Of a stretch of DNA of 64,000 nt, positions 3,951 to 63,295 are shown piece by piece. Each line of letters begins with the position of its first letter. Within the stretch, counting starts at the first letter, position 1. Under the pieces are notes generated by a model. The model saw only the letters and a list, made by a program, of their open reading frames with translations, made no database searches and was not told where the DNA came from. A program made the position numbers and the translations under genes. The DNA is taken from assembly GCA_963082975.1 (NCBI GenBank), contig OY720344.1:17161580-17225579 (forward strand), read 5' to 3'. The DNA is from Labia minor. Taxonomy: Eukaryota > Arthropoda > Insecta > Dermaptera > Spongiphoridae.

Positions 3951-4586
3951 TACCGACCGACGATAGTAAGGGAGGTATTGTTTTCACACCAAATTTCACA
4001 TGTGAAGATTTTTACATATCTCCACGAATCATGCATTTTCTAAACAGAAAAAAGTATTTTTAGAATGATGTCTGTCTGTCCGTCCGTCCGTCCGTCTGAC
4101 CGTCCGTATAGATGTGTACAGCCTGAACGGCTCAACCGATTTTGATGAGATTTGGTATATTTACTTAATGCATCAGAGGGATGAATTGATCAACTTTTGG
4201 TGCAAATCCGAAAACCGAAAGTGGTAGTATTAGCGATCGACGAAAGGAAGGGAAGGGTTTATTTCACACCAAATTTCTTACATACATTTTTTACATATCA
4301 CCACGAATCATGCACTTTGTATTGGTTTTATACTTGAGAAAAATCATCTTTATTAGTTTGTTCTTAATTTAAAATTATATGACGTCATCCAGCCATTCAT
4401 GACGTCACAGCCTGGTCTTACATATATATTATAAATAAAATAAAATTAAAAATATCTATGTTATATCCATATCAGTTTTTTATTACATTAATAGATATAG
4501 TAAAATTATTTGAAATTGTTTCTGTAGCTGGAAATTAATTTAGTTCAAACCGCCGGTCGGTTCAGACCTGGCCACAGGTCAACTTA
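3951..4586 (+). mobile_element. Family C non-autonomous Helentron-like element, copy C1
   Basis: It starts ACCGACCGACG; near the 3' end lies the inverted partner CCGCCGGTCGGTT, followed by a perfect hairpin GACCTG-GCCA-CAGGTC (4565-4580) and the end AACTTA. Inside, from about 4069, is a GTCT/GTCC microsatellite, then a core (CGATTTTGATGAGATTTGGT), then two TGACGTCA-like boxes near 4381 and 4407. The layout (inverted repeat terminal at 5' but subterminal at 3', terminal hairpin, no coding) is that described for Helentron-associated elements. The family call is inference; the structure is visible. Confidence 0.65.
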
Positions 4587-5049
4587 TTTGGTTAGGTTTC
4601 AAATAATTGAAAAATTGCAAATAAATAAAAAAAAAATTTTATTCAACAATTCTTTTTGAACATTAAAATAATTTTAATTCAACAATTTAATTATTAAATT
4701 TATACATTAAAAACATTAATATTTTATAAAGGAAATGTTTTGTAAATAGGATTTTTTTGTATAATTTAATTTTAATCACTTCTGCAATTTAATGAACTTA
4801 ACCAAGCTCTATATCAGAATCCATATTGTTTTTTTTGGTCAATTTGTTTACCAAATTTTAAAAAATTTATTAGTTTTTTAAGCAATATTTTTTGAAAATG
4901 AAAAAATCCCGTAATAACAAAACCGCGGACTCCTAGGAATTACTGTCTCAATTTTATAATTACTCTAATTAAATTTTTCCCATTAAAAAGTATATTTCTT
5001 TAACTATATGAATATTATTAATGATAAATGATCAAATTTGCTATTTAAG

Positions 5050-5291
5050 GTAGTGGTGATGTGGAACCTGGACAAGAATATATCTTCGAACAGAAATTAG
5101 GCAACTCTAGAAGATTTCCAAGAGGGAAAAAAGTTCAATGGAATCCGAATGCAGAAGTGTTTTATTATGCAGACTCAAAACTTCCATTATTGCGACGTTC
5201 TTCCATTCCATTGCGTGAAGTGACCATTCCAAGCTCAGAAAGATACAAGAACAGCATCTGTCTTGATCTACACGTGCCTATATCACTTTGA
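5050..5291 (+). CDS. Terminal exon with RVxF-type (KVQW) motif
   Basis: The acceptor TATTTAAG|GTAG completes a Gly codon from the previous exon (phase 1). The frame encodes about 80 residues (SGDVEPGQEYIFEQKLGNSR, then RGKKVQWNPNAEVFYYADSK) and stops at 5289-5291. KKVQW fits the PP1 docking consensus [RK]-x(0,1)-V-x-[FW]. With SILKK in the previous exon this gives the paired SILK and RVxF signature of PP1 regulatory subunits. A C-terminal SILK plus RVxF pair is known in Rif1 proteins, so Rif1 is one candidate, but I cannot confirm homology. A poly(A) signal follows 89 bp downstream. Confidence 0.65.
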
Positions 5292-5379
5292 GCTGTATGA
5301 ACAACTAAAAAAAAAACGATTTCATTAAGTTGATTATTTTTGAAAATATTTTCTTCATTTCTTAAGCTTCTTAAGCTTC

Positions 5380-5385
5380 AATAAA
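5380..5385 (+). terminator. Poly(A) signal AATAAA of the 5' gene
   Basis: AATAAA lies 89 bp after the stop codon at 5289-5291, a normal 3'-UTR distance. In such AT-rich sequence the hexamer is common by chance; its position is what supports it. Confidence 0.5.
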
Positions 5386-5818
5386 TAATGAACGTATATA
5401 AATTTATAAAAAAAAAATAATAATATAAATTTTATATGCGATTATCCCATTTGTTTGCATAAAAAATTGTGATTTCCATTCCACTATATTCCATTATAAT
5501 TATAAATCCTTTTTTATTTTAATTAAATTTTTAAAACTTATAACAATTTGGTTACTTATTATTTAATAAAATCTTTTAAAATTGTTCAGGTTAAATCTAA
5601 TCTTAAATGTGTTAGCATTTTTTTTAAAATAAAGGTTAATATGAAAATCATTTTTCATTTTAGCTTTCTTGGATTTTACACTAATTTTATAATCAAATTG
5701 TTTTCAAATAATTGGGTGTAAATTATTAATTTTTATATTTTTTTTTTATTAATTTTTGAAAATTATATATCTATAGTTGAGTTGTGATATTTTTTAGTGT
5801 TTGAAGTTTCTAATATTT

Positions 5819-6581
5819 ACTATCTCGCCAGGGCCGTTCTAAGATTTTCGGCGCCCGTGGGCTCCTAAAATTTTGCGCCCCTTTTCATAAGAAATTACAC
5901 AGAATGTTAGTAAAAATATATAAACTAATAAAAAATGCCGCCCCCAGAAGGCTTGCGCCCTAGGGCTATAGCCCAATTAGCCCTGTGGTTAGGGCGGCCC
6001 TGTATCTCGCCAGAGATAGTATTGCGATCAGGAAAATTTTCGATGTCAAGATTTTGATGTTTTTATACGTTTTGAAGGTCCCTGGGTCATTTTCACTAAG
6101 GTTGAGAAAAATGTCTGTGTGTGTGTGTGTGTATGTAGACAAGATTACGCAAAAACGGTTTGAGATAGAATAATTAAATTTGGTACACGGGCATTTTTCA
6201 AAATTTGTAGGTTTCTATCAACTTTTGAGAAATGTAGCTCAACCTACCTACCACGTTTTGATTTTTTTTTCCTATAAAGTGACAGTAAAAATAAAGATAT
6301 ATGTTTGATAGTTTTTCACATGATTAAAAATTGTATAAAACTGCTATATATAGAATTTAAACTTAATTGAATCGCTGAAAGTACCGGAATTATTTTTTAA
6401 CATGTTGACTGGCAATCACACTTTAGCACGTGACGTGGTGCCATCAACAATGAGCCAAACATTATAAATATTATTTATTAATTTTAATTTATAATTTTTA
6501 ATTAATTAAATTTAATTTAAATATAATATATATTATTTAATCCAATTCAAATTGCGAGATAGTCGAGTTGAGACACTCCAT
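5819..6581 (+). mobile_element. Family B non-autonomous Helentron-like element, copy B1, interrupted
   Basis: The 5' end is ACTATCTCGC, interrupted at once by a hAT MITE (5829-6002). The body resumes at 6003 with a GT microsatellite at about 6117-6131 and the core GGTTTGAGATAGAATAAT/AAATTTGGTACACGG. It ends in GCGAGATAGT (6554-6563), the inverse of the 5' end, then a hairpin GAGTT-GAGA-CACTC (6565-6578). Five other copies lie at 30224, 47632, 51490, 54544 and 60720. No coding capacity is present. Confidence 0.65.
5829..6002. mobile_element. hAT-type MITE with exact 8-bp target duplication
   Basis: The 174-bp element has terminal inverted repeats CAGGGCCGTTCTAAG / CAGGGCCGCCCTAACC and is flanked by the identical 8-mer TATCTCGC (5821-5828 and 6003-6010), which is the host B element's 5' end. 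An 8-bp duplication and CAGGG termini are diagnostic of hAT elements. It is non-coding and inserted after the B copy. Confidence 0.88.
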
Positions 6582-6949
6582 CTTATTTTCTTTTTGAGTA
6601 AATTTTAAATTTAATTTTTTTCCATAAATTTCACAAATTTTTTTTTAGTAAATTTCATTTTAATCAAATCTATAAATTTTTATAAGTCACAGACACATTT
6701 CCAATTATATTTATTAAATATTTGTTATTTATTTTAAGTTATAATTTATTATCAAATGGATATGATTTTATAACATTATATATAAATCTTTTTATTGAAC
6801 ATTGTTTAATTATATTACTTTATCTTATGGTATATAAATCATGATATTTATTTATTCAAATAAAAAATGATCTAGTGGAGTTATCAAGAAATTGATATGT
6901 CATTTTTCATTATTTGAGAATATTTTTTTAAGATCTAAATAAAAAATTC

Positions 6950-7532
6950 GAGAGTGTCCTCCCCTAGGCTTTCCCGCATATAAATAGGTAATTAGGTTAT
7001 TATTATTATGTTTTAACAACAATAAAAATAAACAAACTAATTAATTTAAATTATAAAGTAAAATGGTTTAACACTATTATATATATTTATAATTTACACC
7101 TAACGCTACTTGTATAGGTAAAATGTCATTTCCGGTAGTCAGATCATGATGAAATTTGGTATCTGAATTTTTTTCATATTTTTAAATCTATATACAAAAT
7201 ATGAAGTAAATATCTCAAAGAAAACTGGTACTTTACTTGAAAGGTAAACACAACCAGTGTAGGTAAAGTACCACTTCCGGTTAACCAATTTTGACGAAAT
7301 TTTGATAGAAATTTCGAAGTCCTAGCTTAATTAGTTTTTGAGTAAATTTGCTCACAGACATTACATACATCCATACATCCATACATCCATACATACACAC
7401 ACACAGACATAATTCGAAAAATGGTATTTTCCGACTCAGGGAGGTCTAAAACGTCAAGATCTATCAAAATCTCGAAGTCGAAATTTTTGACGATTCCAAT
7501 ACTTCCCTTATACGAAGTATGCGGGAAAGTAA
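6950..7532 (-). mobile_element. Family A non-autonomous Helentron-like element, copy A1
   Basis: In element orientation (minus) it begins ACTTTCCCGCATAC (about 7519-7532) and near its 3' end repeats the inverse TATGCGGGAAAG (about 6970-6981). Beyond that is a hairpin-like GAG-TGTC-CTC (6952-6961). A CATA/CATC microsatellite (7363-7404) sits next to a core containing the CGAAATTT and CACTTCCGGTTAACC segments. The second copy at 33062-34160 has a longer stem. No coding is seen. Confidence 0.6.
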
Positions 7533-7647
7533 AAAGATGAATATATTTTATATTATGGATAATAATATATTTCAGGTATAGAAAAATAATCATTAATTAA
7601 TTTTATTATTCAATAGAAGGATAGTAGAGATTATATATGTATACATA

Positions 7648-8525
7648 CACGGTGTGGTCAATAACCAAGGTGACTGAAACCATAAAAACAAAACGGGTAC
7701 AAATTTATAAATTTTATTTCAGATTATTCAAAATACATCCTCATTGATACATCTTTCAAATCTTTTGTAAAATGAATTGAAGCATAAATAGAAGTCATTC
7801 TTTTGGTGCTCCTTTAGAGCCGCGGTTACGTAATTCTGGATTTCTTCCACCGATGAAAAAGGCTCTTGCTTCATGGCCATTTTTAGTTTAATGAATAGCC
7901 AAAAGTCAACTGGGGCTAGATCAGGGGAATAGGGAGGATGGGCGATAAGAACAACGCCTTTTTTCGCCAAAAACTCGGTCACAATTAGGCAGGAGCGTTG
8001 TCAATAGCCTCCATGAGCTTTGCTCGCGATACTCAGGGCGAATTCGAGCGATTCTCTTCAGCAAACGATCCAAGATCTTCAAATAGTATTCTCAATTGAC
8101 CGTCTGCCCTTGGGGAGTGAATTCTTGATGAATGATGCCTTTACCATAAAAAAAAAACTGTCAAAAGGGTCTTGACTCGACTCTTTTGAAACCGGCCTTT
8201 TTTGGGTCGCTTCTCTTCATGCAAACCATTTGAAAATGTTCTTACGACTCATGGCTTCCTCTCCGTATGCTTTTTGAATAATATCAAATGTTTCTGTGGC
8301 TGTTTTTCCAAGCTTGAAACATAATTTGATGGTTTCTTTGTTACAAGGTAGAAAAAGTTGCTCTGAAAAAATTTGATTTTTGAAAAAGTATCAACACTAG
8401 AAAACTGAATTTTTTTTTGGTTATCGAGGGTTCGTATACCTATTTAATTATGTTTTGATATCTTAGGTGTAGCGCCGTGAAAAGGAGTTACAGCATCAGT
8501 CACCTTGGTTATTGTCCACACCGTG
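7648..8525 (-). mobile_element. Internally deleted mariner with intact terminal repeats
   Basis: Terminal inverted repeats CACGGTGTGGTCAATAACCA / CACGGTGTGGACAATAACCA match at 19 of 20 and continue into AGGTGACTGA. On the minus strand the transposase N-terminus is readable (KLGKTATETFDIIQKAYGEE, near 8250-8310). A deletion removes the region with the first catalytic Asp, and then the C-terminal half follows (HPPYSPDLAPVDFWLF, near 7900-7950), holding a later Asp of the DDD triad. At 878 bp it is about two thirds of the usual 1.3 kb. It could only have been moved by a related source. Confidence 0.9.
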
Positions 8526-8756
8526 TTTTAGAGCAAAATTTTACCGAGTGGCCGCACAGTGTGCCTATATTTTAGGGGCATACAAAAACTATATTTTAAA
8601 ATTAATATTAGTATTTATGTAATATAATACTGTATTATTATTATTATATTTTGTGTAAAGCATATACTATGTGTTATATAGAAATATATAGATAATATAT
8701 ATATTTATTTTTTTTTAAATAGTTTGATAATATCGTCCTTTTCGAATTCATTTTAG

Positions 8757-8797
8757 AATATTCCACATTGATGCATCTTGGGATGAACGAACGCTTG
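8757..8797 (+). other. Possible micro-exon, unassigned
   Basis: CATTTTAG|AATATTCC ... CGCTTG|GTAAGC pairs a fair acceptor with a strong donor around 41 bp. One frame reads IFHIDASWDERTL and is protein-like; a second frame is also open. There is no neighbouring exon to which it can be joined with confidence. It lies between the end of the first gene and the exchanger exon. Confidence 0.25.
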
Positions 8798-9919
8798 GTA
8801 AGCACTTATTTTAAGATTGCATTTTAATTCAATACAATGTTAAAAGTACTTGATCAAAAAAAATGATTTAAAAATGAGGTAAACAGGCTATTTTTATTAA
8901 GAAATTATTTATAAAAAATTATTTATTGATTTTCAATTTCAATACTTTTCCTTTATTTTCTCAACTTAATATTCAAAATTTTTAAAATTTTTCACTTCCT
9001 TATTAGAACATCTTCTTAATTGAAACACATAATCAATATAAAATTTCATATTTTAAATACAAATTGAATTTTTATATAACAAGTTATATTTTATTTTTAT
9101 AAAATACCTTGAATTAATTATTGTACAAAACTATGTTATGTTTTCTCTTTGAGTATCTCCTTCATTCTATCACTTTCAATATCTGAAATGGAGGGTAAAC
9201 AAATGAAAAAAATCATTATTGGAAGGGTTTCTGTGGGGTGCTTCCCCTATTTCAATAGATTCATATTAAAAGTTCTCATACAAAAAATAAACTTTAATAA
9301 AAAATAACTTTCATTAGAAAAACTTTATGAAATTTTAATTAGATTTAATCATACATTAAAAATAATATAATTTATATTATAAGAAAAGTATGTATATACA
9401 AGAAAGAGGATTCAATCTACTTAAAACCATTAAGAATTGTTAGAAAATTTCATCAACACACTGTCTAGTTGTATTTTATATTAGAATTAAAATTATTTAT
9501 TCAAATTTAAATGTTTTTTTGTAGTTGTTATAATGATTTGTTGTATTTTCTTTTTTTATGATAAATAAACAAAAGAGATGTATGTCAAATTTAATAAATT
9601 TATAATTAAAGTTATTTTGTTAATTTTGGAGTATTGGTCATTCACAACCATTAGAAAATATTCTTCAATCACTTTTTATATAATGTTCCTTTAAGGCACG
9701 TTTAACATAATATACTCTCTCCTAGATTATATTGATTGATAAAATTATTTTTATACATTGAATGATTTCTTTATTGATTATGATTGAAGAAAAAGGAAAT
9801 TTTTAAAACAAGCAAATAAATATAATGTAATTTCAAAATGATTTGTAATTGTAATTGGTAAATTTTGAAATGTTTTCTTTCCATTTATACTTGAGTAATA
9901 ATAAATAAAATCGTATAGG

Positions 9920-10220
9920 GAGTAGGGAGTTGGCGTCGAGTCACCTGCACGAGGTCGGCTGCCCTTCGCTGTCGATCTCTGGGTTTGTTGGAGGGTGCTC
10001 ACGATCAATCAGCGCCGGCTACCATATCGACGTTGTGGATGCGCATGCGTGAGCTTGGAGGGTCGACAACAACACTGTAGGCGGACGTGAAGCACAGTGG
10101 TGCGCGTGTTGCCGCGAGATATCCTTGTTATTGTGCCATGCGAGAAACCGCTGACATCGTGGTCGTCTACGTTTTCGGCGACTTGTCGCAAACGTTCATT
10201 CGGTGCCCGTCCAGGCAGTG
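9920..10220 (+). promoter_or_regulatory. GC-rich leader/promoter region of the exchanger gene
   Basis: Base composition changes sharply here from AT-rich to CpG-containing GC-rich sequence and stays so through the coding exon. That is typical of a 5' UTR or CpG-rich promoter. I see no convincing TATA box and cannot place the transcription start. Confidence 0.35.
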
Positions 10221-10536
10221 ATGGCGCGGTCCCTCTTGCTTCATTTGTTGTTGGTGCTGACGGTCACTGCAGTGATTGCACGGGCACAAGCAGCCGCTTG
10301 GTCCGTACGATCCGGCGATTCGGTAAACGATGCCTCCTCACAAGCGCCCACTGATCTACCGCCGCCGGCAATCAGCACCCAAGACGCCTTCCAACCCCTC
10401 ACCGAGGCTGCCAATCAAAAGGCACCAGTCGACAGTCAACATGCCGGAAGAGCTGTCATCTCGGTGGAGTTTAACCGGGTTGAAACACCCTTTATTATTG
10501 GCCTCTGGATCTTCTTTGCTAGCATTGCTAAAATCG
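10221..10536 (+). CDS. Sodium/proton exchanger (NHE, SLC9 family), first coding exon
   Basis: The ATG at 10221 opens a signal peptide (MARSLLLHLLLVLTVTAVIA, with RAQA probably near the cleavage site). Then comes about 50 residues of Ala/Pro/Ser-rich extracellular linker, and then VEFNRVETPFIIGLWIFFAS, which matches the beginning of the exchanger domain of insect and vertebrate plasma-membrane or epithelial NHEs (compare the RTPFEISLWILLACLMKIG region of human NHE1). The exon ends at the donor ATCG|GTAAAT in phase 1, splitting the Gly of the conserved KIGFH segment. These electroneutral antiporters swap Na+ for H+ across the plasma or endosomal membrane. Other frames here are open only as shadows. 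No second exon is recognisable nearby, so the first intron is long. Confidence 0.85.
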
Positions 10537-11690
10537 GTAAATCAACCAAACAGAATCATTTCCTCCTTTATATACTTATAATTTAATATTATAGAAATAA
10601 ATAAATAATATTTGTTTTTTTTGTTTGTTTTTAATATTATTATTTTTATTATTATTATTAATATCAATTTTAATTTACGAATCTATTTATATTATTATTA
10701 TAATTATTTTTTACAAAGATTAATACATTTCTTAAGAAATAAATTAATAAATATAAGTCATCACCCTTTTTTTATTTATTTATTTGTCCCGCCGACTTAA
10801 ATTCTTTCCTCTTTCTACCCCTCTACCCTATCATTGGTATACATATACATACATACTACCTTTAAAAATTATTGTATATATTTATTAACCAATTTTTCTG
10901 ATATTATATATTCTTTTATATAACTTTGATCAATAAAATAAGTTAAAGTTTTTAAAATCAAAATTATTTTCAGAGTATAATTGAGTTTTCTATTAAAAAA
11001 CCATGTATGGAAGAAAAAAGAAAAAAATACTTTAGGGATAACAGTGTTATCTATTTGGTTACATGTAACAAAATTAAAATGATCTGTTATTTAATTTTTT
11101 CTTTATATATATACAAATTAACTTTTTATATTTATTTATTTATTCAACTGTTAGATAATATTATAATCATAATTTTAAACAGGAATATAATAATAAAAAA
11201 AATATATAGTACCTATTTTTTAATATATAAAAGAATAGATAAATTTGTTAACAACTTCACTTCCTTCTTTACAGAATCAAAACAATTCATTTTTTATGAT
11301 ACGCGAATTCAACATCCAAGTTTCGTAATTTTATTTTTAATTTACAACAATTTTAAGTTTTGCAATATAAGTATTCAAAATTAAATGTAATGTTAATTTG
11401 TTAAAAAATAATCGTAGAATTTTTTTAAAAAATGAATCCTTTAAATTTTCGTTTGTCAATTCCATATAAATAAAATCGAAATTTTACATCTTATATATAT
11501 GTAAGTGTGTATGCAAATAAAACAACTTATTTTATGCTAAATCAATTTTAGGTTTTATTAATAAGGTAGCTTATACATTAATAATTTTATAAGATTATAA
11601 AACATACCTAAAACAATATTAGAATATAAGTACTTTTATTTGGGGTGACTAATAATAATAATTACAATAACAATAATGTTTTAATCTCTA
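10537..11690 (+). other. Start of the exchanger's first intron, AT-rich
   Basis: AT-rich intronic sequence follows the strong donor at 10537. ORFs here are low-complexity Ile/Phe/Asn/Tyr runs with no family resemblance. I see no exon or element. Confidence 0.5.
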
Positions 11691-30223: not shown

Positions 30224-30801
30224 ACTATCTCGCCAGAGATAGTATTGCGATCACGAAAATTTTCGATGTTGAGATTTTGATGTTTTTATACGTTTTGAAG
30301 GTTCTTGAATCATTTTCACTAAGTTTGAGAAAAATGTCTGTGTATATATGTGTATGTATGTAGACAAGATTACTCAAAAACGTTTTGAGCTAGAATAATG
30401 AAATTTGGTACACGGAAATTATTCAAAATTCGTAGTTTTCTATCAACTTTTGAGAAATGTAGCTCCACAACGTTTTGATTTTTTTTCTTCTAAAGTGACC
30501 ATAAAAATAAAGATATATGTTTGATAATTTTTCACATGATTAATAATTGTATAAAACTGCTATATATAGAATTTCAGCTTGATTGATTCACTGAAAGTAC
30601 CAGAATTAATTTTTTAACACTGCAAATCTCACGCGCCAACACGTGACGTGGTGCCACCAACAAAGAGCCAAACATGCGCTGGTTCAATAAATATTATTTA
30701 TTCATTTTAATTTATAATTTAATTAATTTAATTTAATTTAAATTAATTTATGTTATTTAATCCAATTCAAATTTGCGAGATAGTCGAGTGGAGACACTCC
30801 A
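30224..30801 (+). mobile_element. Family B element, copy B2 (most complete)
   Basis: The 5' ACTATCTCGC (30224-30233) is answered by GCGAGATAGT at 30775-30784, followed directly by the hairpin GAGTG-GAGA-CACTC (30786-30799). The microsatellite (GTATATATGTGTATGTATG, from about 30339) precedes the core GTTTTGAGCTAGAATAATGA / AATTTGGTACACGG. This uninterrupted 578-bp copy is the best reference for family B. Confidence 0.7.
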
Positions 30802-30939
30802 GATTTTTTTTGTTTAGAGCCTTATTGAAAAATCGAAAATCGGAATATCGGAAAAAAAATTTACTTTTTTTTTTAGAGTCATATTGAATTGAATAAGATT
30901 TATTAATGCAAGTAAATAGGCTTGAGATCCACTATCGCA

Positions 30940-31984: not shown

Positions 31985-32740
31985 TTTCGAAAGTTCTTAG
32001 CCTCAACAACCATATTTCTCCAAATGTTGATTGGTGTCACGAAATAGTGAAAAAATCGACCGAGGGCGTTCAAAATCTGTATACAACATTGTTACAAGAG
32101 ACGAAACTTGGATATATTCGTAAGAACCTGAAAGCAATCAACAATCTACTGTTTGGATGTTGGACAATTAACCTAATCCCACTAAAGTTGTTCGGTCACG
32201 GAGCACTTCCAAGAAAATAATTGCTTGTTTCTTCGGTTGTACTGGACATATCGAGATCATTCCTTTAGAAGATCCACGAACTGTTACTTCTGAATGGTAT
32301 ACAACAATTTGTTTGCCAACGGACTTTGAAGAAATAAGGAAAAACAACAAAAAACTTCGCATTATTCTTCATCACGCCAATGTCAGATCCCATAAAGCAC
32401 GTCAAACAAATGAATATTTGAAAGATAAAAAAATCGAATTAATGTCTCATTGCCGGCATTCATCCGATTTTTTCCCTAATGGCTTTTTCTTGTTCCCCAC
32501 TGTCAAACAAAAGATGCGTGGACAGCGATTTTCATCACCTCAAGAAGCTGTTGAAGACTTTCAAAACCATGTTTCAGCGATATCAACTTCAGAATGTAAA
32601 AATGTTCCCAGAATTGGTTTGAACAAATGCAAAATGTATAGCCCTTAAAGGCGAAAATATTTTGTTAACCAATAAAACACTTATTTCCAACTTATTCGTT
32701 TCTGTTTCACTTTTTGTAAAATCTTAAAAGGCAACCCTCG
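31985..32740 (+). mobile_element. Mariner, 5'-truncated, inactive catalytic residues
   Basis: The plus strand carries VYNIVTRDETWIYS (first catalytic Asp present, about 32075-32115), then KKIIACFFGCTGHIEIIPLE and EWYTTICLPTDFEEIRKNNK, then IILHHANVRSHKA, where HHDN has become HHAN so the second Asp is lost. The SSDFFPNGFFLFP segment lacks the third Asp. The tail RGQRFSSPQEAVEDFQNHV is conserved. At least two stops interrupt the first part. The right terminal repeat (TACGAGGGTTGCCTTTTAAG inverse) ends near 32740. The left end is missing. Confidence 0.9.
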
Positions 32741-33061
32741 TATTAAGCCTACAATAATAAAACCCATTTAACTTATACTTATAGATATTCTATCCACAAC
32801 GAATAACAAAATATATTAATATATAAAGTTATTGAGTTTAATTAAATATCAATTATAATAATCACTTATAATAATCAATTATTTAAAAAAAATCATATTA
32901 TTTTTTTCTTAATCAGATTATCATGAAAATACAAACATTAAACCTATCGTATATATACGTTTATAATAGAGAGTTGATATTATAACTTTCACCCTTGCAA
33001 GAGTGAGCATGGCACCCTCTCTCAGCCAGTTTAAATTTGTTTAAATCGAAGAGTAAATAAG

Positions 33062-33988
33062 CGGGAGTGTCCTCCCCTAGACTTTCCCGCATATAAATAG
33101 GTATAAAGAGTTGTGAATGAATATTTAGAATGTAATAAAGTGCTACTTCCTGTTAACTGATATTTTAAATGTAAAAAAAACAGATATGGATATAATATAA
33201 ATATTTTTAATTTTATTTTATTTATAATATATAAGGGCTGGATGTGACGTCATGAAGTGCTGGGTGACGTCATATAATTTTAAATTAAGAAATAACTAAT
33301 GAAGATGATTTTTCTCGAGGATAAAACCAATACAAAGTGCATAACACGTGGAGATATGCCTTCACGTGAAATTTGATATGAAAATAACCCTTCACTTCCT
33401 CTCCTCAATCGGCAATACTAGCACTTCCGGTTTCCGGATTTGCACCAAAAGTTGATCCATTCATCATAATGATGCATTAAGTAAATATACCAAATTTCAT
33501 CAAAATCCGTTGAGCCGTTCAAGCTGTACACATCTCTACGGACACACAGCGGACGGACGGACAGACATCATGCTAAAAATACTTTTTTCTGTTAAGAAAA
33601 TGCATGATTCGTGGAGATATGTACCTAAAAATATCCACAGGTGAAATTTGGTGTGAAAACAATACCTCCCTTACTATCGTCGGTCGGTAAAAAGGAAACG
33701 CTTCTTGTATAGGTAAAATGACACTTCCGGTAGTCAGATCATGATGAAAATTGGTATCTGAATTTTTTTCATATTTGTAAATCTATATACAAAATATGAA
33801 GCAAATATCTCGAAGCAAACTGGTACTTTACTTGAAAGGTAAACGCAACCATTGTAGGTAAAGTACCACTTCCGGTTAACCGATTTTGACGAAATTTTGA
33901 TAGAAATCTACAAACTGTGAATAATATCGGTGTACCAAATTTCGAAGTCCTAGCTTGATTAGTTTTTGAGTAAATTTGCTTACAGACA

Positions 33989-34019
<31 letters not shown>

Positions 34020-34160
34020 CATACATACATACATACATAATTCGAAAAATGGTATTTTCCGACTCAGGGAGGTCTAAAACGTCAAGATCTATCAAAATCT
34101 CGAAGTCGAAATTTTTGACGATTTCAATACTTCCCTTATACGAAGTATGCGGGAAAGTAA
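33062..34160 (-). mobile_element. Family A element, copy A2, interrupted by C2
   Basis: The hairpin GGGAG-TGTC-CTCCC is at 33063-33076, ACTTTCCCGCATA at 33081-33093, and the far end is TATGCGGGAAAGT at about 34146-34158. Microsatellite (CATA)n spans about 33991-34037. The interior matches A1 except for a family C element at about 33177-33693. Without that insert the copy is about 580 bp, like A1. Confidence 0.65.
33177..33693 (-). mobile_element. Family C element, copy C2, nested in A2, 3'-shortened
   Basis: It matches C3 from AACAGATATGGATATAA through GTGACGTCATGAAG to CGTCGGTCGGTAAAA. The terminal hairpin end is lacking, so either it inserted incomplete or that end was lost. Confidence 0.65.
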
Positions 34161-34791
34161 TAAGTTGACCTGTGGCCAGGTCCGAACCGACCGACGGTTT
34201 GAAATAAATTAATTTCCAGCTACAGAAACAATTTCAAATAATTTTAATATATCTATTAATGTAATAAAAAACAGATATGGATATAACATAAATATTTTTA
34301 ATTTTATTTTATTTATAATATATAGCTGAAGTAGCCGGCGTTGCCCGAGGCTGTGACGTCATGAAGGGCTGGGTGACGTCATATAATTTTAAATTAAGAA
34401 AAACATAATGAAGATGATTTTTCCCGAGGATAAAACCAATACATTCGTGGTGATATGTAAAAAAATCTCCTTATGTGAAATTTGGTGCGAAAATAACCCT
34501 TCTCTTCTTATCGTCGATCGCTAATACTACCACTTCCGGTTTCCGGATTTGCACCAAAAGTTGATCAATTCATCCCACTGATGCATTAAGTAAATATACC
34601 AAATTTCATCAAAATCCGTTAAGCCGTTCAGGCTGTACACATCTATACGGACGGACAGACGGACGGACAGACATCATGCTAAAAATACTTTTTTCTGTTA
34701 AGAAAATGCATGATTCGTGGAGATATGTAAAAATCTCCACATGTGAAATTTGGTGTGAAAACAATACCTCCTTTACTATCGTCGGTCGGTA
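34161..34791 (-). mobile_element. Family C element, copy C3, abutting A2
   Basis: On this strand: TAA, GT, then hairpin GACCTG-TGGC-CAGGTC (34167-34182), then ACCGACCGACG (34186-34196), and at the far end CGTCGGTCGGT (34780-34790). The 11-bp inverted repeats are identical. It starts at the very base after A2's end, giving an end-to-end array. The core and a GGAC-rich microsatellite lie at about 34646-34672. Confidence 0.7.
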
Positions 34792-45642: not shown

Positions 45643-46646
45643 TTCGAGGATCATTCAATTCAATATAATAACTCCGCACAGTTATGCCCTTGTCTTCTTT
45701 CTTGCAATTTCCTAAGCTGACCAGTATTAAATTTCAAAAATTAGTTTGGGAAGTTCTATCTCATCCTGCTTACAGTCCCGACCTCTCCCCATCTGATTTT
45801 AACCTGTTTGGTCCACTCAAAGACGCTCTATGTGGAAAGGGATTTGCTAACGAGAGAATGAGGAGATTAAGGAACTAGTGCAAAAGCTGCTTCAGGGTAA
45901 ATCGAGAGAATTTTTTGACAAGGGAATTAGTAAACTGCAAGAAAGATGAGACAAGTGCATATCTGTGAGGAGTGATTATGTTGAAAATAGTCTGAATTTT
46001 GTAACAATCAAATAAACCATTTTTACCGACCGAGGATAGTAAGGGAGGTATTGTTTATTATTGTATTATCTCCACGAATCATGCATTTTATTAACAGAAA
46101 AAATAATTTTTAGCATGATGCCTGTCCGCCCGTCTGTCCGTCTGTCCATCAGTCCGTCCGTCCGTCCGTATAGATGTGTACAGCTTGAACGGCTCAACGG
46201 ATTTTGATAAAATTTGGCATCAGTATGATCAATTGATCAACTTTTGGTGTATATCCGGAAACCGAAAGTGGTAGTATTAGAGTAGTATAGAAGGGTTATT
46301 TTCACATCAAATTTCACAAGAGGAGATTTTTTTAATATCTACACGAATCTCTTGCACTTTGCATTGGTTTTATGGGAAAAATCATCTTCATTAGTTTTTT
46401 CTTAATTTAAAATTATATGACGTCACCCAGCCCTTCATGACATGATAGCCAGGGCCTCCTTATAATTATAAATAAAATAAAATTAAAAATATTTATGTTA
46501 TATCCATATCTGTTTTTTATTGCATTAATAGATATATTAAAATTATTTGAAATTGTTTCTGTAGCTGGAAATTAATTAATTTCAAACCGTCGGTTCTGTG
46601 CCTGGCCACAGATCAACTTATTCTTATTAATTATTGAATGACTCTC
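45643..46646 (+). mobile_element. Internally deleted mariner interrupted by family C
   Basis: The left end CGAGGATCATTCAATT and the right end (inverse CGAGAGTCATTCAAT) form the terminal repeats, next to TA. Inside, only the transposase C-terminus remains on the plus strand: WEVLSHPAYSPDLSPSDFNL, FGPLKDALCGKGF, and in a neighbouring frame KELVQKLLQGKSREFFDKG. The late catalytic Asp of the SPD segment is present. The C4 element (46024-46620) splits the 3' UTR from the right terminal repeat. Confidence 0.85.
46024..46620 (+). mobile_element. Family C element, copy C4, inside a mariner
   Basis: It starts ACCGACCGAGG and ends ...CCACAGATCAACTTA. Flanking mariner sequence is ...AATAAACCATTTT on the left and TTCTTATTAATTATTG on the right, so insertion within a run of T is likely. 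That agrees with T-T insertion by Helentron-type elements. The microsatellite GTCC/GTCT is at about 46122-46168. Confidence 0.7.
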
Positions 46647-51487: not shown

Positions 51488-51489
51488 AG

Positions 51490-52014
51490 CTGGAGTGTCT
51501 CCACTCGACTATCTCGCAATTTGAATTGTATTAAATAACATAATATATTATATTGAAATTAAATTTAATTAATTATAAATTAAAATTAATAAATAAAATT
51601 TATTTAACCAGCGCATGTTTGGTTCTTTGTTGATGGCACCCCGTCACGTGTTGGCGCGTGAGATTTGGAGTGTTAAAAAAGTAATTCTGGTACTTTCAGC
51701 GTTTCATTCAAGCTGAAATTCTATATATAGCAGTTTTATACAATTTTTAATCATGTAAAAAATTATCAAAGATATATCTTTATTTTTACGATCACTTTAG
51801 AGGAAAAAAATCAAAACGTTGTAGGTAATGACCCTCTTCCCGATGAGTTACATTTCTCAAAAGTTGATAGAAAACAACGAATTTTGAATAATGCCCATGT
51901 ACCAAATTTTATCATTCTTGCTCAAACCGTTTTTGCGTAATCTTGGTTACATACATACACACACACACACATACACACACACACACATACACACACACAT
52001 ACACATACACATAC
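51490..52014 (-). mobile_element. Family B element, copy B4, truncated at the microsatellite
   Basis: The hairpin GAGTG-TCTC-CACTC is at 51493-51506, followed by ACTATCTCGC (51508-51517). The core is intact up to TTTTTGCGTAATCTTGG and an (AC)n/(ATAC)n tract (about 51950-52014). The 5' third beyond the microsatellite is absent. Confidence 0.65.
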
Positions 52015-54540: not shown

Positions 54541-54543
54541 AAT

Positions 54544-55514
54544 CTGGAGAGACTCCACTCATCTATCTCGCAAATTTGAATTGGATTATATTTAATTAAA
54601 TTATAAATTAAGTATAATTAAATTGGATTAATTAATTAATAATTAAAAAATTTAAATTTACAGTATAGTATTGTTATTAAATTAAATTAATTAATTAACA
54701 TATATTAAATTAAATTTAAAACCTTTACCTTCATTTTTAAGTCAAAATTTAAAAATTTTAAAATTGTTTTTCGCATGTTTATCTCTTTTATTATCTCTAA
54801 AATTCAATCAAGCTGAAATTTCATATATAACAGTTTTATACAATTTTTAATCATGTGAAAAACTATCAAACATATATCTTTATTTATATAGTCAGTTTAG
54901 AGCAGGGGTGGGCAACCCGCGGCCCGCGGGCCAACTGTGGCCCGAGTGCACATAAAGTGCGGCCCGCGAACATATTTAAAATTTATATGGTGGCCGGCCC
55001 TTATTCAAATGTTTTAATGATCTTCATCATAATATTGAGTTATTTCTAATGACATTCATTACTAAAGTAAATAACATACCAAAAACATAATTTTTGTCAA
55101 TTGAGGTTATTTTATAATACATTTTCTTTACCGTTTTCTGAAAACATAATTTTCATTTACTTACAAAACCAATGTTAATGGCCCGCTTAAGTTTGGTTGT
55201 TTTCAATTTTGGCCCGCATTATAAAAATGTTGCCCATCCCTGGTTTAGAGGAAAAAAAAATGAAAACGTGGTAGGTAATGACCCTCTTCCGAATGATTTA
55301 CATTTCTCAAAAGTTGATAGATAACTACGAATTTTGAATAATGCCCGTGTACCAAATTCTAGCTCAAACCGTTTTTGCGTAATCTTGTCTACATACATAT
55401 ATATATAGTCAACCTTAGTGAAAATGACTCAGGAGCCCTTTAAAACGTATAAAAGCATCAAAATCTCGACATCGAAAATTTTCGTGATCGTAATACAATC
55501 TCTAGCGAGATATT
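54544..55514 (-). mobile_element. Family B element, copy B5, with nested hAT MITE
   Basis: It starts with the hairpin end GGAGAGACTCCACTC and ends GCGAGATATT, opposite the usual ACTATCTCGC. The core matches B2 and is split by the MITE at 54903-55242. Without the MITE it is about 620 bp. The microsatellite is reduced to ATAC/AT repeats near 55391-55408. Confidence 0.65.
54903..55242. mobile_element. hAT-type MITE, 8-bp target duplication GTTTAGAG
   Basis: The ends are CAGGGGTGGGCAACCCGCGG / CAGGGATGGGCAACAT, flanked by exact GTTTAGAG at 54895-54902 and 55243-55250. The ends are rich in GCGGCCCGC. It is 340 bp, non-coding and inserted into B5. Confidence 0.9.
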
Positions 55515-55954
55515 AAAAAGGTCAAATTTTTAGATCGGTCACCCATAAATAATATTGAATTATATTTTATTATACTTTTCATTTTAATTAAATGTATAAT
55601 GAATAATAAATGATACATATTCAGGGATTATCTATAATAAAATATACATCAATGCAAATATTGAAATTGTGCTTTATAAATTTTTAAATTCTACCTAAAT
55701 AATTATTTCGATGTTTATATTTATTTTTAAGTTAAAATTTATATTAAATTGTATATTTATATGTTAATTTTCATTTTAAACAAACATTAAATATATTCAC
55801 AGTTTATTCACAAATAAATATTATAGAAAAACAAAATTTTAATTTACCAAATTTACTTATAATATATATTGATAGAAAAATATATGTAATAAAAAAAATG
55901 TTTTAAGTAAAAAAATAAAACATAATATTTGAAAAAAAATACTTTTTTCTAAAC

Positions 55955-56213: not shown

Positions 56214-56234
56214 ATTTAATCAATAAAAAAAAAA

Positions 56235-56485: not shown

Positions 56486-56744
56486 AACAATAACTCGCAA
56501 ACAAATGAAATATTTCTTGCAACAAAATTAAATTAGTGTAAAAAAAAATATTTAAAGGAAAATAAGACCCTTGATAACAGTCGACAGAATAAAAAAAACT
56601 TGTTTAAATATAAAAATAAAATAAATTTTCAAAAATAAAATTTAATTTTCAAAATCTTGAAAGAAATTGTTTTATAGGATTATCAACAACTTTTGCATCA
56701 ATTACTTCTCGTATAATAGTCGATATAAGAAGATTACTAGATTA

Positions 56745-56886
56745 CTTTGTGGTACATGTACCACTGGTGGTACCTTATAACCTCACGGTGGCACATACAC
56801 TTCAGTTGCTTTTAGTAACGAAATCATTTTAGTGACACCTGAACTTTTTTATTAAAGATTTTTATTAAAAAATTTGAGAACCTCTG
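56745..56886. mobile_element. hAT-like MITE fragment
   Basis: GGTACATGTACCACTGGTGG is a palindromic segment typical of one class of hAT MITEs. The right end AATTTGAGAACCTCTG reads CAGAGGTTCTCAAATT in reverse. The left terminus is not identifiable. Confidence 0.4.
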
Positions 56887-57052
56887 CATTTTGTTATGCA
56901 AATGTGCTTGATCAAGCAGCCATGAAAATAGTCACAAATCATCGAATAATAATCGTTTATCTTAGTTTTTTTTTTATCTTAAATTGTAAAATTTATATAT
57001 TTTTTTCTACCACCTCTATCAGAGTACCACTCGGGGCAAATGTCCCCTCTAA

Positions 57053-57400
57053 GGCCCGATTCACACACAAGTGGCGTATCGCACTGGCGTGGTTCTGGCG
57101 TGGAACAGGTTTGTTAATGTAATTGCATTAGCTTATGACTCAATACCCACAGATATGGCGTATGGCGTGTTGGAGGCCTGGAAAATGGCACGAAGACCAC
57201 TCCAAATGGTCTAGAAGTGGCGTGCCAGTCCCTACGAGCCACCGGTGGAGTCGGAGCGGAGTGGTCTTCGTGCCATTTTCCACGCCTCCAACACGCCATA
57301 TCTGTGGGTATTGAGTCATAAGCTAATGCAATTACATTACAAACCTGTTCCACGCCAGAACCACGCCAGTGCTATACGCCACTTGTGTGTGAATCGGGCC
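57053..57400. mobile_element. Foldback MITE with long arms and TAA target
   Basis: The two arms of about 150 bp are almost perfect inverses of each other, starting GGCCCGATTCACACACAAGT on both strands, with a loop of about 45 bp around 57212-57255. The flanks are TAA on both sides (57050-57052, 57401-57403). A 3-bp TWA duplication and GGCCCG ends point to the PIF/Harbinger group. Arm identity this high suggests recent arrival. ORFs inside are only the arms read through. Confidence 0.8.
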
Positions 57401-58072
57401 TAACCCTCCCCCTCTCGCCACGCTCCTGGTACTATGCCAGAAATGTAGGAACCTTCAAGCTTCTAAATGTAAACTGTCTATCAACTTATTCCTAGAAGGT
57501 GTTAAAAATTTTAAAATATGCTAGAATTTTGGAACTCCAAAAGAGGGTCACTTCAAATGATATTTAAGAAAATAATCATTCAAGAAAAAAATATATACCT
57601 AGATGCCTAATTTAAATAAATATATTATCTATTAAAAACATACTTTTTGCAATTTTCATACATTCTTGTAATTTTTCAATTTTTTCTATTCTTATCTTTG
57701 CTCTTGACCTTGAAACTAAATATAAATAATGTAACTTATCATTAAATATAATAAATAATAATTATTTAAGTACTATCAAATATTTCGAAATATTAGTTGT
57801 CATATGACATAAATTTTTTAATTTGATTAGGCGAATTATTATATAAACTTTGAATTATTTCATTTGCAAATTAATAAAAAAAATATTTTAAATAAATTCC
57901 AATTAATTTAATTGATTTATTGTAAATGTGTGCAATTTTTTATTTTTGTACATTTTTTCTAAATTAATTAGTGAACATAACTAATTTAAAACTGATAATT
58001 ATAATTCAATTTTTTTAGCATAGATATTTATTATTTATGAAATAATTACAAACTTCCATACATTCCTTTTAA

Positions 58073-58335
58073 CAGGGCCATACTAACTTCTGTTTGGGCT
58101 ACCACCTAAGGGCGCCGTAACTTAAGGGGCGCCACTAACGTAAAATTGAGGAATTTTTAAATATGCTTAAATTATAAAAATGAAGTGTAAGTTCATGGGA
58201 ATTTCATTTAACAATATAATTTTATTTATACAATGAAATATTTAGAAATCATATTTAAGAAGTTTTATTGCTTAGGCCCTAGGGCGCTAATTGGTTATAT
58301 AACACAGGGCGCCAAAATTGATAAGAACTGCCCTT
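58073..58335. mobile_element. hAT-type MITE with near-perfect 8-bp duplication
   Basis: It begins CAGGGCCATACTAACTT and ends (inverse) AAGGGCAGTTCTTAT. The flanks CCTTTTAA (58065-58072) and CCATTTAA (58336-58343) match at 7 of 8. CCCTAGGGCG-type segments are shared with the MITE at 5829-6002. Non-coding. Confidence 0.75.
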
Positions 58336-59664
58336 CCATTTAATCTATTAGTGACAAAAATCACAAAAAAAAAATATTCAAATACCATAAGTTAAAGTTT
58401 TTCTTAGGATATTTTGAATATTTATGTTTAATCGATTCGTCGTTGTTTTTTGAACAATAGACTATATTATATTTTCAGGAATATCAGAATATCTATAATA
58501 ATTATTTTATTGTAGGTTAATATATGTAATCTAAATCGAAATCAAATCAAAATTTTCTCTTTTAACGAGGGTATAGATATTTATTTTTCAAGCTCTATAT
58601 ACATATATATATATATTCAAATAGATTATGACGAAAATGTAAAGTATATACACAACAAAAGACAAAATATTAAACTTAAGTTAATTTATATTTTCTAGAG
58701 AAACAAAAATTATTTGTAAATGAATGACATTTAAGATACTTCCGAATATAAAATCTTTAAGACATATCTTACCATCTCTTTAAATCTTTATCAAGTTTAA
58801 TATTAATGATGTTATTTTGTTCGTATATCTTGTTTCTTTCTTGAATCAAATTGTTTTAGGGAAAAAGAAATTCAAGGCCTCACCATTTGACAGGTTCAGA
58901 AATAAATTTTGAATTTTTGGCTGACAATCATTTACTTGGCTAAAATGTCGAAATGTCTATCATTATAAATTACTATTATACTTACTGTTTTTCTTAAACC
59001 AATTCATTTCATCATCTATTTTTTCTTTATTCCTCCTATCGGTTATTATATTTTATCTTTTAATATAGTAATATAGAAATACATTTTTTCCCCTGGTTTT
59101 ATTTAAATTTTATTTAAAATATTATACATTTATATTTATATATTATTATATATATAAATCGAAAGTTAAAAATAAATGAGCGACAGTTCCGCTGACGCGT
59201 TCAAATATGGAATTCATTCAAAAAGGAACTTTCTGTCACAAAATAATCTTCCTCACCTCACTAACCTATTTATAATAACAAGATTCATCAGCCTCTCTCT
59301 TCCTTTTGTCTTGCCAATTCAATTTACATTGGAAATTGAAAATTAAATATCATAACATTTTACAGTTGAAGTTTTTTTTATAGACTTAATGTTGAAATTA
59401 TTCATGGATATTAATTAAATTTAAATTTAAATTATCACTTCGCATTTCATAAATTATTAAAAGAAAGATTACTTGGTAAAAAAGATTTTCAATATACCTA
59501 TATAATTTTTATACTTGACTCGTTAAGTCATTACATTATAGTTGAGCTTATTTATTAAATTAAATTATTTATTTGTTATAATATTTACAATGAATTAAAT
59601 TATAGATAAAGATAAAGAACTAAAAAAAAAATAAATGAAAAAGCAAGTTCTTATTATCATTATC
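58336..59664. other. AT-rich stretch, nothing recognised
   Basis: AT-rich background; no exon or element was recognised. Confidence 0.45.
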
Positions 59665-59935
59665 ACTATACTAGTCGTTCCGGCATAAAACTCTTTTTAT
59701 TGTTAGAGGGACATTTTAAAACACAAAACAACACAGATTAAATATAAAATTATTAACTTTATTCAAATCGTCGTAATAATTTTTTTATTTTTTTTATTTG
59801 ACACTTATTTAATTTAACAAATAATTTAGTTAGTTACAAATTAATAATTTTGACAATTTGTAACTAACTTCATAATGTTACAGATATTACATACATATGA
59901 CGGAAATTATATATATTGATATATAGTAAATAAAT
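59665..59935 (+). repeat. Dispersed repeat I, copy 2
   Basis: ATACTAGTCGTTCCGGCATA, AACTCTTTTTATTGTTAGAG, TTTATTCAAATCGTCGTAAT and CTTCATAATGTTACAGATAT follow the same order as in 44432-44910. Confidence 0.55.
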
Positions 59936-60719
59936 ATACTAATAGAAATAGAAGATCAGTAAATAACATAAAGAGAGGTGTAGAAAAAAATTATACAAAA
60001 TTAATTAAATAAAACGTTTAAGTTAAAGCAATTAATTGTTTTTACAAGAATTTTATATAAAATATATAAATTCTATATATATCTTTTAATGGATTTGTTA
60101 TCAATTTCTTCATTTAAAGCAAATTAATTTTATTTTTCAAATTGAGAATTGATTATATTCCGTTAATCATTAATTACATTAGATATTTTTTAACTTTTTC
60201 TTTATTTTATCAATAATTTTTCCTATAATAATCTGATTATAGAAAATTTCAATTTATTATCGAGATTATTATAAAATCATAGCGTAAATAAAGGAGGGGG
60301 TGGTAAATTGTTGTAAAGATGATTTCTATTTCAGGATAAGATTTTCTGTTCATCGCTTACATTAAAAACAAAAGATCATGTATTTTCCTCTTGCTTTTCT
60401 CATCCTAATCGTAGTTTTCTATTTCCTGTTAATTCAATGATTAGATAAATGGGTAAACCTTCGATTCTAAAAATAAATAACTGAGAGAGAGAGAGAAATA
60501 TATACCCATAGGAATAAGCCAAATTTCCCAAAGATAAACAAACAATCTATCATGTTATAATGAGCTTTTTGTAAAACTTTGACTCACAATTAGTTAATTT
60601 CAATCAAAAATATTTTAGTCATAATGTCAAGGTTGTATGTTTATTGTATGGTGAGAAAAAATTACCAGTTTCAAAAAAATGTTAATTTTTTTTTTTATTT
60701 ACTCTGTAAGACTAAATTA

Positions 60720-61169
60720 GCTGGAGTGTCTCCACTCGACTATCTCTCAATTTGAATTGGATTAAATAACATAATATATTATATTTAAATTAAATTTAAT
60801 TAATTATAAATTATAAATAATAAATATTGAACCAGCGCATGTTTGGCTCTTTGTTGATGGCATCAGGTCAAGTATTGGCGCGTGAGATTTGCAGTGTTAA
60901 AAAATTAATTCTGGTACTTTCAGCGATTCAATCAAGCTGAAATTCTATATATAGCAGTTTTATACAATTATTAATCATGTGAAAAATTATCAAACATATA
61001 TCTATTTTTACGGTCACTTTAGAGGAAAAAAAATCAAAACGTTGTAGGTAATGACCCTCTTCCGGTTGAGCTACATTTCTCAAAAGTTGATAGAAAACTA
61101 TGAATTTTGAATAATGCTCATGTACCAAATTGCATCATTCTAGCTCAAACCGTTTTTGCGTAATCTTGC

Positions 61170-61261
<92 letters not shown>

Positions 61262-61371
61262 TTTTCTCAACCTTAGTGAAAATGATTCAGGAACCTTCAA
61301 AACGTATAAAAACATCAAAATCTCAACATCGAAAATTTTCGTGATCGCAATACTATCTCTTTCGAGATAGT
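60720..61371 (-). mobile_element. Family B element, copy B6, with 90-bp CA tract
   Basis: The hairpin GAGTG-TCTC-CACTC (60724-60737) is followed by CGACTATCTC; the far end is CGAGATAGT at 61363-61371. The core is well conserved. At the family's microsatellite position lies an uninterrupted (CA)n of about 90 bp (61171-61260), against a dozen bases in B1. ORFs with His-Thr or Cys-Val runs here are the microsatellite read through. Confidence 0.7.
61171..61260. repeat. (CA)n microsatellite, about 45 units
   Basis: A perfect dinucleotide tract inside B6, the longest simple repeat in the window. Confidence 0.95.
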
Positions 61372-61990
61372 AATAAACACAAACAATTGTCAACGTTACC
61401 TGCTAGTCCCCATAGTTTTAGTATTTATTAAAAAATAATATTTATTACATTTATATACTCGTATATTTATATAATCGTCCATGTTTTAAGGTATTTTTTA
61501 AGGAATTTTTGTTTTAAAATTTCAATCTAAATAAAATATCATTTAACTTAAATAGTTTTTTTTTTGATTGAGTTAATTTTTTGTAATTTAATATTTTCCA
61601 ATAATTTTTATATAAATAATTAAAATATTTGATAATATTTCTTATTAATCGAAATTTGAACTTAATATAAAAAAACAGTATCAAAAAATTATCAGTTTCA
61701 ATCGCGAAAAGTAAAAAAACATCAATTTATCCATGTCATTAAATTAATATTTAACAAAAAAAAAATACAAACAAATTAATTTTAATATAAAATTTATGCA
61801 TATAAATATGTACAAGTTTTAGATTCATTTATTTGTGAATATACTCAAAATATCACTATAAATAAATATGCAAAAAAAATGTTAATTTATTTTTAATTAT
61901 TTAATTTATAATGTTAAATATTGATTTGTTTTGCAAATCAATTCATTAGAAGTGTATATAAAAAAATCTTCATATTGTAAGGTGAAATGA
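61372..61990. other. AT-rich stretch, nothing recognised
   Basis: AT-rich background; no exon, repeat or element was recognised. Confidence 0.45.
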
Positions 61991-61995
61991 CCTCA

Positions 61996-62466
61996 CGTTG
62001 GGTGCCAGTGTAAGGAGCCGAGATGACACCAACGAGTTCCTCGATGCACCAATTTGAAGGGGGGGAGATGTTGTCTAGTCCATATAAGGGAAAAGAGGAA
62101 AGGGAAAATAGAAAGAAATTCTGTTAAGCGCCAGCTCATTTTTCTAAATTAGCAAGAGGAACGAAATAAGGAAAGAATAGATGAAAAGGAGACGAATGAT
62201 GATTAATAATAAATTTATAGAAGAAGGGGAAGAATGTGATACAATGTCTTCTTAATAATGAAATTGTATTTACAAAAGAAAAATATACACTAGGAATATA
62301 ATTACATTAATTATACAATTAAGGGAAATTATCGTAAGATAATTTGAGGAACTGAGGGGAAATATAATGGAAAAGTAGCCCCTATTCCTTAAAATAGAAA
62401 ATAGTTTAAATTCCTATTTCCAGTTATAAGAAGGGAGTGTATTTGGATTAGAAAGAATTGTTAACA
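61996..62466 (-). mobile_element. LTR fossil, Ty3/gypsy-like LTR with primer-binding site
   Basis: Read on the minus strand, an LTR-like block of about 460 bp begins TGTTAACAATTC near 62466. It ends just before TGGCACCCAACG (61996-62007), a primer-binding-site-like sequence. No coding remnants adjoin it, so only one end of the element is left. It differs from the LTR near 1130-1740 and is a separate family or a much older copy. Confidence 0.5.
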
Positions 62467-62669
62467 CTTCGAGAAGACTTAAGTCTGCTTATGAGAAAGA
62501 CTCGGGTTTTCGGACTTTCCGGATCCGTCTTTTTAGGACGTCCCTTTTTCCTTTTGTCACTTGTTTTTAAAAATCAGTAAATAATATAATTGTTTTCATT
62601 TGGTTTTACCCCAGTTTGAGTAACCGTTAATATTGGTGTAGAGAAATTATTAATAATATTATTAACAAA

Positions 62670-63295
62670 TAAGTTGACCTGTAGCCAAGTGCAGAACCGA
62701 CCAACGGTTTGAAATAAATTAATTTTCAGCTACAAAAACAATTTCAAATAATTTAAATGTATCCATTAATGCAATCAAAAACAGTTATGGATATAACATA
62801 AATATTTTTAATTTTATTTTATTCATAATATATAAGTAGGAGCTCGCTGTGACGCCATGAAGGGCTGAGTGACGTCATATAATTTTAAATTAAGAAAAAA
62901 ATAATGAAGATGATTTTCCCGAGGATAAAACCAATACAAAGTGCATGAGAGATTTGTGGAGATATATAAAAAATCTCCTCATGTGAAATTTGGTGTGAAA
63001 ATAACCCTTCCCTTCCTATCGTCGATCGGTAATACTACCTCTTCCAGTTTTCGGATATACACCAAAAGTTGATCAATTCATCATACTGATGCATTAAGTA
63101 AATATGCCAAATTTTATCAAAATATGTTTAGCCGTTCAAGCTGTACACATCTATACGGAGGGACGGACAGACAGACATCATGCTAAAAATACTTTTTTCT
63201 GTTAACAAAATGGATGATTCGTGGAGATATGTAAAAATCTCCACATGTGAAATTTGGTGTGAAAACAATACCTCCCTTACTATCGTCGGTCGGTA
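62670..63295 (-). mobile_element. Family C element, copy C5
   Basis: From TAAGTTGACCTGTAGCCAAG (worn hairpin) and ACCGACCAACGG to CGTCGGTCGGTAAAA at the other end. The GACGGACAGACAGACATCAT microsatellite/core junction is at about 63160. It matches C3 throughout. Confidence 0.7.

Follow-up and report, generated by a model that had tools for sequence, protein, structure and literature searches.

Three families of short, non-coding repeats, here called A, B and C, recur in a 64,000-nucleotide stretch of the Labia minor genome (contig OY720344.1, positions 17,161,580 to 17,225,579; hereafter the window). All three are very probably Helentron-associated non-autonomous elements (HINEs, DINE-1-like), passengers moved by the Rep/helicase (RepHel) proteins of Helentrons. 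The finding that carries this reading is a Helentron, elsewhere in the same genome, whose RepHel frame lies between the two ends of B. A first-pass annotation of the window, made from its letters, had proposed that rolling-circle machinery of one type mobilized all three families. That proposal holds for B through the Helentron with both of its ends; A and C fit by their anatomy, and C also by its insertion sites, with no partner found for either.

A Helentron bounded by the ends of B

The genome assembly searched comprises 604 Mb in 71 contigs. The PF14214 profile (Rep of Helitrons) returned 104 matches from 126 candidates in it, and none in 14 control genomes. One open frame of 2,181 amino acids (locus L051, 2395-8937, minus strand) matches the Pfam families DUF6570, Helitron_like_N (1.3e-23) and PIF1 (1.9e-31). 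Its Rep motif, VEFQMRGSPHEH at residue 763, fits the 'S' form of the signature that Thomas et al. (2014; PMC4067079) give for Helentrons (this and the other papers cited are represented here by excerpts). The element therefore has both the Rep signature and the PIF1 helicase expected of a Helentron. Nearer the C-terminus, the motifs GDFN, IDIVL and YHKPV occur in that order, and we take them to belong to an endonuclease-like segment, a candidate for the C-terminal AP-type endonuclease of Helentrons. Behind this segment lies an Ulp1-like stretch that matches Peptidase_C48 weakly (0.0036, under the cut-off) and aligns with SENP8 in the PDB at an E-value of 0.011.

The ends of B stand on either side of this frame. 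Preceded by a T-run and 4.3 kb upstream, positions 1-486 of the B consensus recur at 92.0% identity, followed by a second stretch, 277-513, at 94.9%. About 1.3 kb downstream are the B 3′ subterminal inverted repeat (subTIR) and hairpin, letter for letter, and the end CAGCTAA|TTTT; the exact B hairpin was found only once on that strand of the 16 kb (L051 and L053). The element so bounded also contains a copy of C (1-530) and a 715-bp repeat. The first-pass annotation had advised a search for longer copies with the same termini around a Rep/helicase frame, and this search recovered the B-type element together with a second copy of the protein. Downstream of the second copy the B 3′ end recurs, beyond which the flanking DNA differs; the 5′ end of this copy was not seen. 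Because a Helentron carries both ends of B around a RepHel frame, B is a Helentron-associated non-autonomous family.

The 715-bp repeat (L051, ~1476-2191) has a GC-rich start and an (AAG)n-(TTA)n tail. When the 3′ stretch of the Helentron was used in a DNA search, the 39 other main matches were all to this repeat, at 87-94% identity.

Shared anatomy and insertion into T-runs

In A, B and C alike, a 5′ subTIR is followed by a body with a microsatellite, the inverse of the subTIR, a hairpin and the end of the element. The 5′ subTIR is the terminal motif, of 10 bp in B, 11 bp in C and 13 bp in A. In all three families its inverse sits 22-25 bp inside the 3′ end, with the hairpin beyond it, and the subTIR with internal inverse that characterizes HINEs and DINE-1-like elements is thus present throughout. 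The asymmetric repeat and terminal hairpin reported in the first-pass annotation were found where it had placed them, and beyond what shuffled sequence yields. The C hairpin, GACCTG-N4-CAGGTC, is exact at 4565 and 34167; the A hairpin, GGGAG-N4-CTCCC, stands at 33063, and the B hairpin, GAGTG-N4-CACTC, at 30786 and additionally at 51493 and 60724. Hairpins are mismatched in the other two full-length C copies (46025 and 62670) and in the A copy at 6948. A local inverted repeat accompanies the 5′ subTIR; folded without a shuffle control, it gives a perfect 8-bp stem in B (ACTATCTC-GCCA-GAGATAGT in the copy at 30224..30806), an imperfect stem in A and a weak one in C. The microsatellite of C is of GTCC/GTCT type, as in DINE-1.

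As a control for chance, a structural scan for subTIR, inverse and hairpin was run on the window and on 20 10-kb stretches at round positions. It gave 30 matches, a number that includes register duplicates and some pairings of the ends of neighboring copies, against one in ten dinucleotide shuffles summed. All but one of the 30 (at L045) have A, B or C termini, so no fourth family emerged under those scan settings. The window holds no open frame of at least 150 amino acids starting from ATG, GTG or TTG, and hence no coding capacity is seen in the families; a stop-to-stop frame of 154 amino acids (33769-34233) overlaps A. A motif scan of the window and the sampled loci found neither Rep motif 2 nor Pif1 motif I. 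The matches listed came from the less strict Rep3 and DEIS patterns, have the appearance of low-complexity chance, and were set aside. An Rfam search gave no matches, and neither did viral_contigs when scanned with a single pattern each for the C body, the A 5′ end and the B 5′ end. Among the literature matches listed for the terminal motifs, only the 10-mer ACTATCTCGC occurred, in papers unrelated by title.

The ends were compared in 32 copies of C (4 from the window, 20 picked from genome matches and 8 from the sample) and 14 of B (3 from the window, 11 from the sample). All three families start at T|AC. At least five Ts precede every one of the 32 C copies, and at least four precede 11 of the 14 B copies. 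Of the 32 C copies, 30 (all but those at L031 and L035) have AACTTATT as their 3′ end, and one of the two A copies ends GCTTA|TT. C, this one A copy and four copies of B point to a shared 3′ terminus, CTTA|TT, though it is not the rule in B. Empty sites were sought with the joined flanks of 47 insertions in which both ends are present (32 C, 14 B and 1 A), and four of these insertions have empty counterparts (three C, one B), all in T-runs. At L028, C entered another C, and six Ts became five plus three; at L022 and L023, C entered B bodies, and about eight Ts became six plus four; at L030, B entered an unrelated repeat in a run of about seven Ts. Apart from ambiguous Ts, these four sites show no duplication, which bears out for C and B the earlier expectation of T|T insertion without target duplication. 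A like ambiguity of Ts is reported, in the excerpted text, for HINEs and DINE-1 (PMC4067079, PMC2374699).

These features would be consistent with a rolling-circle route. RepHel would nick at the 5′ end (T|AC), one strand would be displaced and copied by rolling circle, copying would stop after the 3′ hairpin, and the strand would be transferred into a nicked T-run, perhaps with the endonuclease of RepHel. A rolling-circle view of movement, with a possible endonuclease role in the choice of T-runs, is likewise found in excerpts of PMC4067079. An enzyme of this class, we infer, also serves A and C, each family having two matched terminal motifs of its own.

Relations, copies and abundance of the families

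The first-pass annotation had treated A, B and C as families with unrelated terminal sequences. The termini do differ, but the bodies of A and B are homologous: the alignment of their 5′ bodies scores 62.5, whereas 200 shuffles average 18.0 (s.d. 2.9, maximum 27.5), which makes A and B a single lineage whose termini differ. The body of C scores 31.5 against A (shuffle mean 13.6, s.d. 2.0, maximum 21.5); on these alignments C may be a more distant relative of the A/B lineage. About 280 bp from its start, C also holds a decayed second copy of its 5′ region, and at L041 a free-standing unit of ~358 bp starts (ACCGACCGAC) at this second 5′-like point and ends at the C hairpin. Long C is thus presumably a composite of a 5′ part and short C. 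Within L041 (2727-5581), three C-related units lie in one orientation at a spacing of 1.2-1.3 kb, one of them a complete short C of ~358 bp. At L031 (6655-7537), a full C runs straight into a further C 3′ part (C 412-639), giving tandem 3′ ends. Satellite-like arrays also occur in the sample, at L029 (~160-bp spacing) and L048 (~1,657-bp spacing).

Alignment within the window recovered more copies than the first-pass annotation had listed, namely extra copies of A and of B (Table 1). C has four full-length copies and one fragment that lies inside A; A has two copies; and of the five B copies, two are split by other DNA and one lacks the 5′ part. Positions 468-1001 of the A copy at 33058..34158 align with C copies; because this copy carries a C fragment, its length is atypical, the other being ~583 bp.

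Table 1. Copies of families A, B and C in the window, and B-linked rolling-circle loci elsewhere in the genome
Feature	Position	Strand	Details
C, full length	3952..4586	+	5′ ACCGACCGACG, 3′ subTIR, hairpin 4565-4580, end AACTTA|TT
Second 5′-like domain inside the preceding C copy	~4231-4321	+	Alignment
C, full length	34161..34790	-	Directly adjoins A 5′ end
C, older	46025..46620	+	9.6% from C consensus
C, full length	62670..63294	-	7.4% from consensus
C without 3′ end, inside A copy	33153..33689	-	C 1-554
A with C fragment inside	33058..34158	-	Hairpin 33063-33076, 3′ subTIR 33082, 5′ subTIR 34146
A, uninterrupted by C	6948..7530	-	583 bp; one hairpin mismatch
B	30224..30806	+	3′ subTIR 30775, hairpin 30786-30799
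B, 5′ terminus split by 174-bp insert	5819..6584	+	Insert 5829-6002
B without 5′ part	51488..51975	-	B 113-580
B, full length, long (AC)n	60718..61371	-	Alignment
B, split by other DNA	54541..55515	-	Pieces 54541-54901 and 55299-55515
B-type Helentron with both B ends	contig C1:47,862,608-47,874,777		12,170 bp; one contiguous stretch (L051+L053, 16 kb)
Second protein copy	contig C1:44,694,181-44,700,650		Pieces 90-97% identical, with stops
Third protein copy	contig C10:37,189,978-37,193,101		Pieces 77-90%

The insert in the second B copy (region 5821-6010) ends in CAGGGCCG and CGGCCCTG and has TATCTCGC flanking it on both sides, and we take it to be a hAT-type miniature inverted-repeat transposable element (MITE) with an 8-bp duplication. 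Elsewhere in the window, the frames at 7728-8000 (-) and 32172-32648 (+) presumably represent fragments of mariner transposases. A stop-to-stop frame of 143 amino acids at 10155-10586 (+) may be an insect sodium/hydrogen exchanger exon.

A genome search with C turned up 6,687 candidates and one with B 7,015 (candidates, not copy counts), of which 40 were scored for each family; the copy in the window aside, identity is 92-94% in the 39 main matches of C and 85-93% in those of B. B accounts for 6.2% of the 200-kb sample and C for 4.8%. Together they make up ~11% of it, so these families shape the genome. A covers 1.7%, cross-matches to B copies included. Distance from the consensus is 1.4-9.6% in C (mean 3.3; 32 copies, 20 of them chosen for similarity) and 2.5-9.3% in B (mean 5.5; 14 copies).

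Alternative readings and known systems

Short, abundant, non-coding families with inverted repeats could also be MITEs, left behind by a cut-and-paste DNA transposon that duplicates 2 bp (TT) of its target, and the net gain of about two Ts at the C empty sites would suit them. However, MITEs should have terminal inverted repeats at both ends and a target duplication. In all three families the 3′ end carries the inverse of the 5′ motif internally, with a hairpin after it, the four empty sites offer only ambiguous Ts, and the frame between the B ends encodes RepHel rather than a DDE transposase; this origin is very unlikely. Retrotransposed short interspersed nuclear elements would likewise be short, abundant and non-coding, yet a tRNA search of the window gave no match, the four empty sites lack target duplications of variable length, and the 5′ ends are defined and bear inverted repeats, which leaves the idea scarcely credible. 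The genome does encode Rep proteins of the canonical Helitron form RGLPH (L049, L050), and derivatives of such Helitrons would have a 5′ TC, a 3′ CTRR and insertion between A and T. Here the 5′ ends are T|AC, CTRR is usual in none of the families, insertion is into T-runs, and the B-linked Rep has the Helentron signature; canonical Helitron ancestry is accordingly highly improbable.

A narrower alternative deserves more attention. It is conceivable, though we consider it unlikely, that B alone is a HINE and that the helper of C and A was a Rep of another type, of the class at L052 and L054 without a C-terminal endonuclease, or is extinct. The proteins at L052 (1,785 amino acids) and L054 (1,754 amino acids) have the RGSPH signature, PIF1 and DUF6570, and no endonuclease match. 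The L054 element has beside it, after the RepHel frame, a frame of 1,184 amino acids that we take to be a retroelement-like pol. The L054 protein also gives a marginal match (0.098) to the herpes tegument protease family, a domain known from Helentrons in the excerpted text of PMC9741609. Against this alternative, the youngest copies of C (mostly copies selected for similarity) lie only 1.4-3% from the consensus, so the C helper was recent; C shares T-run targeting with B; and neither stretch contains an A or C end, although the termini of the L052 and L054 elements themselves were not located.

Several observations nevertheless weigh against extending a Helentron origin to all three families, or against parts of it. 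L052 and L054, considered as partners for A and C, were rejected for want of such ends, the 351 bp at L058 beyond a 51%-identical relative have none either, and no autonomous partner for A or C was found among these three stretches. A is represented with termini by two copies in the window and sampled loci, both in the window, and the one A insertion tried gave no empty site. The B-C body score (21.0) falls within its shuffles (maximum 30.0). The 3′ end of B is variable (AGATTTT in 6 of 14, GCTTATT in 4, GCTAATT in 2, others in 2), and a terminus common to the three families is therefore not established. The net gain of about two Ts at C insertions may reflect either Ts borne by the element or a TT duplication. 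Exo_endo_phos_2 matches the B-linked protein below the Pfam cut-off (E 0.0013 for the whole protein, 0.00024 for the C-terminal 402 residues), and the third protein copy, on contig C10, has no B end in the 601 bp starting 118 bp past the frame's last match. Finally, the mite HINEs in excerpts of PMC4067079 have subTIRs of 12-15 bp, 38-60 bp from the 3′ end, compared with 10-13 bp and 22-25 bp here. These points notwithstanding, a HINE identity for A, B and C best accommodates the anatomy, the insertion sites and the B-type Helentron.

More tentatively, and with the odds somewhat against it, the data may reflect a new architecture, in which RepHel, endonuclease and an Ulp1-like protease share one frame, while passengers keep an ancestral body and exchange 5′ subTIR, 3′ subTIR and hairpin as a matched set (A versus B), each set presumably reporting a different Rep specificity. 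No Helentron with an Ulp1-like protease was found among the matches listed from open-licence literature. Since the literature covered was open-licence and both protease matches are weak, we regard the Ulp1-like Helentron as a lead, not a claim. Excerpts of PMC2836005 note that certain Helitrons have OTU domains and that Ginger1 and Mutator have Ulp1. A design read from raw sequence correctly indicated, in this case, which helper enzyme to expect. Two passenger families with a common body and different matched ends, along with an open-frame helper for one of them, form a natural set, which makes end recognition by Rep in Helentrons directly testable.

The closest known systems are described in excerpts of three studies. 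HINEs and Helentrons of Metaseiulus, Culex and Drosophila (Thomas et al., 2014; PMC4067079) resemble A, B and C in their subTIRs, 3′ palindrome, T-rich unmodified target and variable Ts at the ends, and these HINEs are, as B appears to be, deletion derivatives of same-ended elements with Rep, helicase and endonuclease; the B-linked frame departs from those Helentrons at its end, where an Ulp1-like segment with a weak match follows the endonuclease-like segment. DINE-1/INE-1 of Drosophila (Yang & Barbash, 2008; PMC2374699) likewise has a 5′ inverted repeat beside the subTIR, TT insertion, a 5′ block with a (CCGT)n(CTGT)n microsatellite and a 3′ stem-loop of species-specific sequence. Its terminal sequences differ from those found here, where three terminal types occur in one genome and C has an internal second 5′-like domain. 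The Hel-2 Helitrons of Lepidoptera (Coates et al., 2015; PMC4344730) share the 5′ inverted repeat, subterminal repeats, 3′ hairpin and a (CTGT)n microsatellite, but have TC/CTAG ends and an A/T target in place of the T|AC start and T-run target. HINEs and Helentrons are thus a known kind of element, of which A, B and C are new members.

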